Origin: Marinitoga sp. 1197
GTDB taxonomy: Bacteria > Thermotogota > Thermotogae > Petrotogales > Petrotogaceae
Direction of reading: 5' to 3'
NCBI RefSeq assembly: GCF_001021165.1
Contig: NZ_AZAY01000012.1
Location: 1 to 64,000, forward strand
Length of the DNA: 64,000 nt
Part shown: piece after piece, positions 20,848-50,842 of the stretch
Numbering within the stretch: position 1 is the stretch's first letter
Layout: each line of letters starts with the position of its first letter
Program-made: the position numbers and the translations under genes
Notes under the pieces: generated by a model
The model's input: only the letters and a program-made list of their open reading frames with translations
The model's database searches: none
What the model was told of the DNA's origin: nothing

Positions 20848-20961
20848 AGTATATATAGAGGGATATAGTTTATATTATTGATTATAAAACCGATTATTCA
20901 CATTATATAGCTTAAAATAAAGGTTAAAAAATAATAAAATTTTTAGTATAATAAAATTAGT

Positions 20962-21156
20962 ACGATGTCCAAAAAGTAAAGTTGCTCAAACCTTAATTGC
21001 TAATCTTCAAAAATAACATATTTTCGCCGGTCGTATCAGACTCACATCCATGTTCGGCTTCACTCAATTTTGCATCCATGCAAAATTGACCGGCTTCATA
21101 TGCTATTTTTTCAGGCAATTTTCGAGTTTTCGCTTACTTTACTAATTGGACACCCA
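20962..21156 (+). repeat. nested-palindrome element, copy 1 (upstream of glpX)
   Basis: About 190 bp of non-coding DNA with ends TGTCCAAAAAGTAAAGT (20966) and ACTTTACTAATTGGACA (to 21152), inner arms GCCGGTC/GACCGGC, and a further hairpin TTTTGCATCCATGCAAAA. Order and motifs (ATTGCTAATC, CATCCATG, GGCAAT, TTCGAG) match the copies at 39713 and 46615. It is flanked by the 9-bp direct repeat aaaattagt (20953-20961 and 21157-21165). A TATAAT at 20947-20952 directly precedes the left repeat. Confidence 0.8.
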
Positions 21157-21213
21157 AAAATTAGTTGTAATGTTAAAATTATACTATAAAAAATAAGAAT
21201 AGGGGGAAATGTA

Positions 21214-39436: not shown

Positions 39437-39450
39437 AAAAACACCTCACA

Positions 39451-39468
39451 TGACTGACTGGTTAGTCA
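39451..39468. promoter_or_regulatory. TetR operator 1
   Basis: TGACTGACTGGTTAGTCA, 7 of 9 arm positions pair. It lies just downstream of the -10 box, so a bound repressor would block the start of tetR transcription. Confidence 0.75.
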
Positions 39469-39473
39469 ACTAT

Positions 39474-39502
39474 ATTATATTACATTTTACATTTCGTTTC
39501 AA
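39474..39502 (-). promoter_or_regulatory. promoter of the tetR-radical SAM operon
   Basis: Reverse strand TTGAAA (39502-39497), 17-nt spacer, TATAAT (39479-39474). Confidence 0.7.
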
Positions 39503-39589
39503 ATATGACAAATAGAGTCATAAAATTGAACTGTCATTATATCAGGTTATAAAAATCACAAATAAAGTAGAAAAAAATTTATAAAAAAA

Positions 39590-39607
39590 TGACTGACTGG
39601 TTAGTCA
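39590..39607. promoter_or_regulatory. TetR operator 2
   Basis: The same 18-bp sequence as operator 1, TGACTGACTGGTTAGTCA, 139 bp further upstream of tetR. Its separate position suggests looping or control of a transcript toward the right. Confidence 0.7.
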
Positions 39608-39680
39608 AAAAATTTATAAAAAAATAAAAAAATCGTAACCTGTGAATAAAAAAATAAATATATAGAAATTTACAAGTATA

Positions 39681-39709
39681 TTGATTTTTTTTATGAATAA
39701 TGATATAAT
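39681..39709 (+). promoter_or_regulatory. promoter upstream of TPP leader
   Basis: TTGATT (39681-39686), 17-nt spacer, TATAAT (39704-39709). A repeat element follows; the -10 region taatgatataat recurs at 39908-39919 after the element. Confidence 0.6.
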
Positions 39710-39712
39710 TAG

Positions 39713-39907
39713 ATTGTCTAAAAAGTCAAATTCACTCAGACAGCTTGATTGCTTATCCTTAAAATTATTCATTCTCAGCCGTCGCTCAAACAATACATCG
39801 TGTATTGTTTCGCTCAAAATTACATCCATGTAATTTTGACGGATTTCATTCATAATTTTAAGGGCAATCTTCGAGTCTTCGTTTCATTTGAGACTTTTTA
39901 GACAGCC
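39713..39907 (+). repeat. nested-palindrome element, copy 2 (upstream of TPP riboswitch)
   Basis: Ends TGTCTAAAAAGTC (39715) and GACTTTTTAGACA are exact inverted repeats. Within are ATTGC...CCTTAAAATTAT/ATAATTTTAAGGGCAAT, then GCCGTC/GACGG, and two hairpins AATACATCGTGTATT and AAAATTACATCCATGTAATTTT. Long stretches of the arms are identical to the copy at 46615. A 12-bp direct repeat taatgatataat flanks it (39698-39709, 39908-39919). Confidence 0.85.
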
Positions 39908-39929
39908 TAATGATATAATGTTATTGAAT

Positions 39930-40035
39930 ACCCGCCGGGGGAGCTCCTATACCGGGGCTGAGATTAAGGTGGAAACCTTAAGACCCCTGCACCTGATCCG
40001 GGTAATACCGGCGTAGGGAGAGCGGAAAAGGGTTA
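39930..40035 (+). ncRNA. TPP riboswitch (THI element)
   Basis: Core motifs GGGGCTGAGA, then GACCCCTGCACCTGATCCGG, and GTAATACCGGCGTAGGGA are those of the thiamine pyrophosphate aptamer. It lies upstream of thiB and is followed by an intrinsic terminator at 40043, so TPP should switch off transcription of thiB. Confidence 0.95.
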
Positions 40036-40042
40036 ATAATTA

Positions 40043-46451: not shown

Positions 46452-46462
46452 ATCACCTCTTT

Positions 46463-46507
46463 TTCACTCACTGAGTGAATTATAACATGTTATTATTGTA
46501 AAGTCAA
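46463..46507 (-). promoter_or_regulatory. promoter and operator of the HTH-Rossmann regulator
   Basis: Reverse strand TTGACT (46507-46502), 17-nt spacer, TATAAT (46484-46479), then the perfect palindrome TTCACTCA-g-TGAGTGAA (46463-46479) abutting the -10 box. Confidence 0.85.
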
Positions 46508-46614
46508 TTAATTTATTTTAAATGGCATTGTTGATATAAAAATTTATAATAAAACATATCGGAATAATCATATGTATATTATATTATGATTTCGATTATA
46601 GTTAATCGGATTAC

Positions 46615-46809
46615 GCTGTCTAAAAAGTCAAATTCACTCAGGCAGCTCGATTGCTAATCCTTAAAATTATTCATTCTCAGCCGTCGTTCAGATTTTTCAT
46701 CCATGAAAAAGCTTCACTCAAAAAAACGTCCTGTTTTTTTGACGGCTTCCATTCATAATTTTAAGGGCAATCTTCGAGCCTTCGCTTCATTTGAGATTTT
46801 TTAAACAGC
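46615..46809 (+). repeat. nested-palindrome element, copy 3 (upstream of HAD gene)
   Basis: Ends GCTGTCTAAAAAG (46615) and TTTTTTAAACAGC (to 46809). Arms CCTTAAAATTAT/ATAATTTTAAGG and AGCCGTC/GACGGCT. Inner hairpins TTTTTCATCCATGAAAAA and AAAACGTCCTGTTTT differ in sequence from those of copy 2 but are again palindromic. No clear flanking direct repeat. Confidence 0.85.
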
Positions 46810-46835
46810 ATATAAAATATTTGTAATTAGGTAAA

Positions 46836-50749: not shown

Positions 50750-50772
50750 ACTAATCCCTCCAGAAAACTTTT

Positions 50773-50817
50773 TTCATTCACTGAGTGAATTATAACATAT
50801 AATAATTGTAAAGTCAA
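50773..50817 (-). promoter_or_regulatory. promoter and operator of wbpA-B-D operon
   Basis: Reverse strand TTGACT (50817-50812), 17-nt spacer, TATAAT (50794-50789), then TTCACTCA-g-TGAATGAA (50773-50789). This is the same layout as at 46463, with one base changed in the palindrome. Confidence 0.88.
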
Positions 50818-50842
50818 TAAATTTTTTGTTTGGCTAAAAACA

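Follow-up and report, generated by a model that had tools for sequence, protein, structure and literature searches.

Analysis of the window, a 64,000-nucleotide stretch of Marinitoga sp. 1197 DNA, indicated with a probability of about 0.85 that its three long palindromes belong to a family of non-autonomous transposable elements (MITEs) that extends across the genus and carries a selected fold of the TwoAYGGAY class. Copy 3 spans positions 46612..46812 on the minus strand, which is its folding strand (hereafter the R strand); its ends read TACGC-TGTC ... AACA-GCATA, and no recognizable target duplication accompanies it. Copy 2 (39710..39909, minus strand) belongs to the same family as copy 3, and copy 1 (about 20961..21157, minus strand) represents a second outer-arm family with the ends TGTCCAAAAAGT / TGTCCAATTAGT. 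The inner arms quoted in a preliminary description of this DNA were all located in the window, in copies 1, 2, and 3, and the outer arms that it called nearly identical in copies 2 and 3 showed 87% (left) and 89% (right) identity. The three copies that it reported are real, but their number in the genome is approximately 70, and its interpretation overlooked both the transposon-type nature of the repeat, with its target duplications, and the TwoAYGGAY core.

The elements are approximately 190-200 bp in length and are scattered through the genome, with copies of one family being mostly 80-97% alike. When the window's own genome (2.27 Mb in 51 contigs) was searched at the DNA level, the copy 2/3 family appeared at about 40 places and the copy 1 family at about 25-30. 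The covariance model of the core (R1) matched 70 sites in this genome, 35 in its relative G002, and 41 in G004, for a total of 146. At least one DNA match was present in each of the seven genus genomes searched, and none of the 54 genomes of relatives outside the genus had a DNA match. When 84,980 species were scanned with a DNA pattern, the only match was judged to be due to chance, and the phage and plasmid collections searched gave no match. A literature search on Marinitoga repeats found nothing relevant. Elements of this kind were also seen nested inside one another in G002 (L082, L086, L089, and L092) and G004 (L105 and L113). In about ten copies (L032, L034-L039, L041-L043, L068, and L070), which belong to more than one subfamily, one and the same segment of the 3' arm is replaced by an inserted block, CGCTTAGATTTTTTAGG..TAAAAAATCTAAGGG ... 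GTAGCGTGT, that brings further small hairpins (GAGCGATAGCTC) and CCCGCNGTAG repeats. These variants were considered as autonomous versions of the element, a reading that was dropped as inspection by eye showed no coding capacity.

The ends of the elements are inverted and read TAGNN-TGTCYAAAAAGT. Exact TGTCYAAAAAGT occurs 88 times in the genome, compared with 7 for the reversed control. Direct repeats abutting the ends flanked 43 of 49 copies versus 5.5% of shuffled pairings, and the target duplication had a modal length of 9 bp, with a register uncertain by 1-2 bases. In copy 2, the duplication is ATGATATAAT on the left (39700..39709) and on the right (39910..39919), and its left copy lies in a -10-like box upstream of a TPP riboswitch, which an Rfam scan of the full window placed at 39927-40037. 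In the relatives G005 and G002, the copy 2 site is empty and uninterrupted, and the sequence duplicated in copy 2 is a -10-like box (TGATATAAT) that lies upstream of the TPP riboswitch. Copies are inserted in AT-rich intergenic regions and have outward -35-like ends; among 14 insertion sites, -10-like boxes showed no clear enrichment. The promoter region of the TPP-riboswitch gene holds an element in three species (window 39700-39930; L198 in G004; L199 in G003). The three insertions differ in position and subfamily and all face the same way, suggesting that elements entered a preferred site independently.

A candidate autonomous partner of approximately 1,031 bp (L132) carries TAGAGTGTCCAAAAAG at both ends, and L134 likewise has the ends of the elements. 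The partner insertion sequence (IS) family (L132, L134, and L118) contains a DDE_Tnp_1 domain (E value, 1.5e-12). The partner copies seen have damaged reading frames or are located at contig ends, and an intact transposase gene was not seen in the window's own genome. The candidate partner resembles IS4/IS5-like insertion sequences in its DDE_Tnp_1 domain, combined with the ends of the elements, but differs in that none of the NCBIfam IS models reached its cut-off on the available partner fragment. Judging from the shared ends, the ~1.03-kb DDE_Tnp_1 insertion sequence is the likely source of the transposase that would move the elements. Terminal inverted repeats, target-site duplication, a partner with the same ends, and an empty site in a relative were all found, as is expected of a MITE. 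Long-hairpin folding is common in bacterial MITEs, of which Correia/NEMIS is one example. RUP and BOX of pneumococcus are among the others that have been described (PMC3049150). The elements resemble these MITEs in being short and non-coding, with IS-matching inverted ends, target duplications, and intergenic insertion. They differ in that the interior is a fold of a named RNA family that covaries across species and is kept even where genomes differ completely in the outer ends.

On the R strand, the interior folds into a conserved cloverleaf, in which a long stem contains tandem G.A motifs and the loops of two hairpins contain GGA. In copy 3, hairpin 1 (46718..46742, minus strand) reads TCAAAAAAACAGGACGTTTTTTTGA on the R strand with the loop AGGAC, its plus-strand arm containing AAAACGTCCTGTTTT; hairpin 2 (46693..46710, minus strand) reads TTTTTCATGGATGAAAAA with the loop TGGA, its plus-strand arm being TTTTTCATCCATGAAAAA. 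Copy 3 was far more stable than its dinucleotide shuffles on either strand, with z = -9.1 (minus) and -7.6 (plus).

The covariation of the inner arms, which the preliminary description had pointed out, was borne out in an alignment of the minus (R) strand of 62 copies from seven genomes. The RNAalifold consensus contained 35 pairs, of which 24 were changed on both sides. Paired cells amounted to 97.8%, compared with 82.2% in shuffled and 33.7-50.0% in slid alignments, where the slid control covers the relatedness of the copies and the tested structure is itself derived from these 62 sequences. Cells changed on both sides numbered 340 versus 93.6 in shuffled alignments, and the covariation score was 0.454, compared with 0.160 in shuffled alignments and no more than 0.103 in slid ones. 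For example, one pair of hairpin 1 was U-A in 34 copies and A-U in 28, and the next pair was A-U, U-A, or C-G in 28, 24, and 8 copies, respectively. G.U intermediates were common at some of the covarying pairs. Some hairpins differed between subfamilies as whole modules and others by single compensatory steps; therefore, the copies are not independent events. These results strongly support that the hairpin arms covary from selection on the single-stranded R fold, with the sequence left free outside the loops and G.A motifs.

The arms are self-complementary as had been described, but the palindromes are imperfect and contain conserved, strand-specific tandem G.A mismatches. Alignment columns 31/184 and 32/183 were purine-purine in 62 of 62 copies and Watson-Crick in none, and columns 62/148 and 63/147 were purine-purine in 59 and 60 of the 62, respectively. 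A further tandem G.A (columns 103/130 and 104/129) adjoins hairpin 2. Six of the eight G.A positions tested were never Watson-Crick. The pairs adjoining the G.A motifs covaried freely; columns 34/181, for example, were GC in 36 copies, AU in 17, UA in 6, and CG in 1. The conserved fold was assigned to the minus strand because the G.A mismatches are kept there and read C.T on the opposite strand. The R strand was the better-folding strand in 89 of 90 copies, with a mean of -67.8 versus -56.0 kcal/mol (RNA parameters). Comparable folding of both strands, as a cruciform would require, was thus not found, and cruciform DNA is disfavored with internal loops that are purine-purine on one strand and C.T on the other. 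Since this mismatch pattern is kept, the fold is selected on the single R strand rather than as a cruciform or through repair that copies one arm onto the other. One-sided changes to G.U outnumbered those to A.C by 20 to 16 at pairs common to both consensus folds and by 45 to 18 at those of the R consensus. This test carries a bias if the consensus is derived from a single strand, and it favors RNA only weakly; the strand assignment therefore rests on the G.A mismatches. Selection on a folded nucleic acid, as proposed in the preliminary description, is thus strongly supported by covariation and a strand-specific fold, and the cruciform and palindrome-rebuilding forms of that proposal are disfavored. 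That the selected fold acts as an RNA is favored rather than proven.

The fold corresponds to a named RNA family. Copy 3 matched TwoAYGGAY (RF01731) at 46642..46779 on the minus strand with 45.8 bits (E value, 1.5e-6; gathering score, 43) in a scan of a 300-bp region with relaxed filters; the match did not appear when the full window was scanned against Rfam with fast filters. Copy 2 matched on the minus strand with 44.5 bits (L023:1526-1662, the locus of copy 2), and other elements scored 46.1 (L003), 52.2 and 50.6 (L040), and 42.9 bits (L102); copy 1, with 36.7 bits, fell below the gathering score. Every match to the elements is on the R strand, and across 103 genomes of the phylum, RF01731 matches occurred in this genus only. 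Copies 2, 3, and others reach the gathering score, and two AYGGAY-type loops and the tandem G.A stem are present. The elements share with TwoAYGGAY two adjacent hairpins with AYGGAY-like loops, tandem G.A motifs in the closing stem, and an outer stem of weak conservation. TwoAYGGAY was described from human gut metagenomes, gamma-Proteobacteria, and Clostridiales (Weinberg et al., 2010; PMC2864571). In contrast, the elements belong to another phylum, have 35-70 core matches per genome, and possess transposon ends and target duplications. No description of a mobile, high-copy TwoAYGGAY was found in the literature searched.

Tandem GAs and two strong matches to CsrA sites were noted in TwoAYGGAY by Gardner and Eldai, who proposed CsrA sequestration without a test (PMC4333381). 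The class has been an orphan RNA since 2010, and no test of the predicted CsrA role was found in the literature searched. In the present elements, CsrA had been suggested by the loop sequences before the family match emerged. Loop 1 contains GGA in 62 of 62 copies, and loop 2 contains GGA in 46 and CGA in 14 of the 62. One large subfamily, that of copy 2, has CGA instead of GGA in the loop of hairpin 2, which should weaken one predicted CsrA site. Hairpin 1 reads ACAUGGAUGU (often), ACAGGAUGU, or GCAUGGAUGC, resembling the E. coli CsrA SELEX consensus RUACARGGAUGU (PMC6692469). The genome encodes one CsrA of 79 aa (Pfam E value, 2.3e-16). The start of csrA overlaps a 326-aa ORF composed of two FliW-like halves in tandem (L127:227-1443).

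The two GGA hairpins, as predicted sites, could bind a CsrA dimer, and a transcribed copy of the element would then either titrate CsrA or supply a neighboring transcript with a CsrA site. Tentatively, the transposon family may thus spread CsrA-titrating RNAs, with mobile TwoAYGGAY acting as a dispersed collective sponge or as portable CsrA sites in mRNAs. If so, the copy number and insertion positions of the elements would tune CsrA activity across the genus. The paired GGA hairpin loops suited to a dimeric protein recall CsrB/CsrC/RsmX/Y/Z, as has been argued for TwoAYGGAY (PMC4333381). The elements differ in having two loops rather than many and in being scattered mobile copies rather than one regulated gene. 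With its tens of mobile, nearly identical TwoAYGGAY copies, the genus provides a natural system for testing the CsrA role.

The orientation of the elements bears on how the R strand might be produced. In co-directional gene contexts, the opposite (P) strand was sense in 27 cases and the R strand in 11 (p 0.014); relative to the neighboring genes, R is for the most part the antisense strand. The orientation relative to genes had been considered as a promoter effect; this was replaced by the plain antisense bias of R. In G004, the one finished genome, R was on the lagging side in 29 of 41 copies (p 0.01), with leading and lagging sides judged from sampled GC skew. Therefore, read-through would mostly make the non-R strand, and no obvious internal promoter for the R strand was seen in the elements. 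Over half of the copies in G004 are concentrated at about 0.97-1.4 Mb of C1, near the GC-skew minimum (probable origin).

The same bias is compatible with a fold selected as single-stranded DNA or for transposition, as a lagging-strand hairpin or a structure recognized by a transposase or host factor, and sheared tandem G.A pairs can form in DNA too. However, the target duplications and the DDE transposase point to double-stranded DNA transposition, and the strand bias may simply follow gene orientation. We consider this explanation unlikely; it leaves the conservation of the GGA loops and the match to an RNA family unexplained. Compensatory changes could also arise with no selection on the product, through template switching or gene conversion between the arms that rebuilds the palindrome. 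Whole hairpins do look like swappable modules between similar copies, and elements are nested in elements. Nevertheless, G.A mismatches persist beside covarying pairs, where arm correction would have erased them, the loop GGA stays fixed, and G.U intermediates are common at some pairs, and such rebuilding appears very improbable as the origin of the covariation.

It is also doubtful that the elements are ordinary hairpin MITEs, in which the transposon ends would produce the long hairpin as a by-product and the likeness to TwoAYGGAY and CsrA sites would be incidental. The long-hairpin folding often seen in bacterial MITEs, the AT-rich intergenic insertion, and the outward -35-like ends would agree with this explanation. 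In G004, G002, and G003, however, many copies (L082, L093, L098, and L102) have quite different outer arms around the common core; their outer ends are entirely different from those of L001, and the core is conserved. Hence, the ends of one transposon did not give rise to the fold as a by-product. Moreover, the core covaries and several copies pass the Rfam gathering score. We prefer the reading of a MITE family with a selected TwoAYGGAY-class fold, in which a structured single-stranded fold can persist by selection inside a MITE whose ends were replaced.

Two other repeats were observed near the elements in the window. A 58-bp repeat containing CACTCACTGAGTGAATTATAACAT occurs at 46460-46517 and 50770-50827 with 90% identity and is probably a regulator operator with a promoter, upstream of two genes. 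Two copies of ATGACTGACTGGTTAGTCAA, at 39450-39479 and 39589-39618, are likely operators of the adjacent TetR-like regulator.
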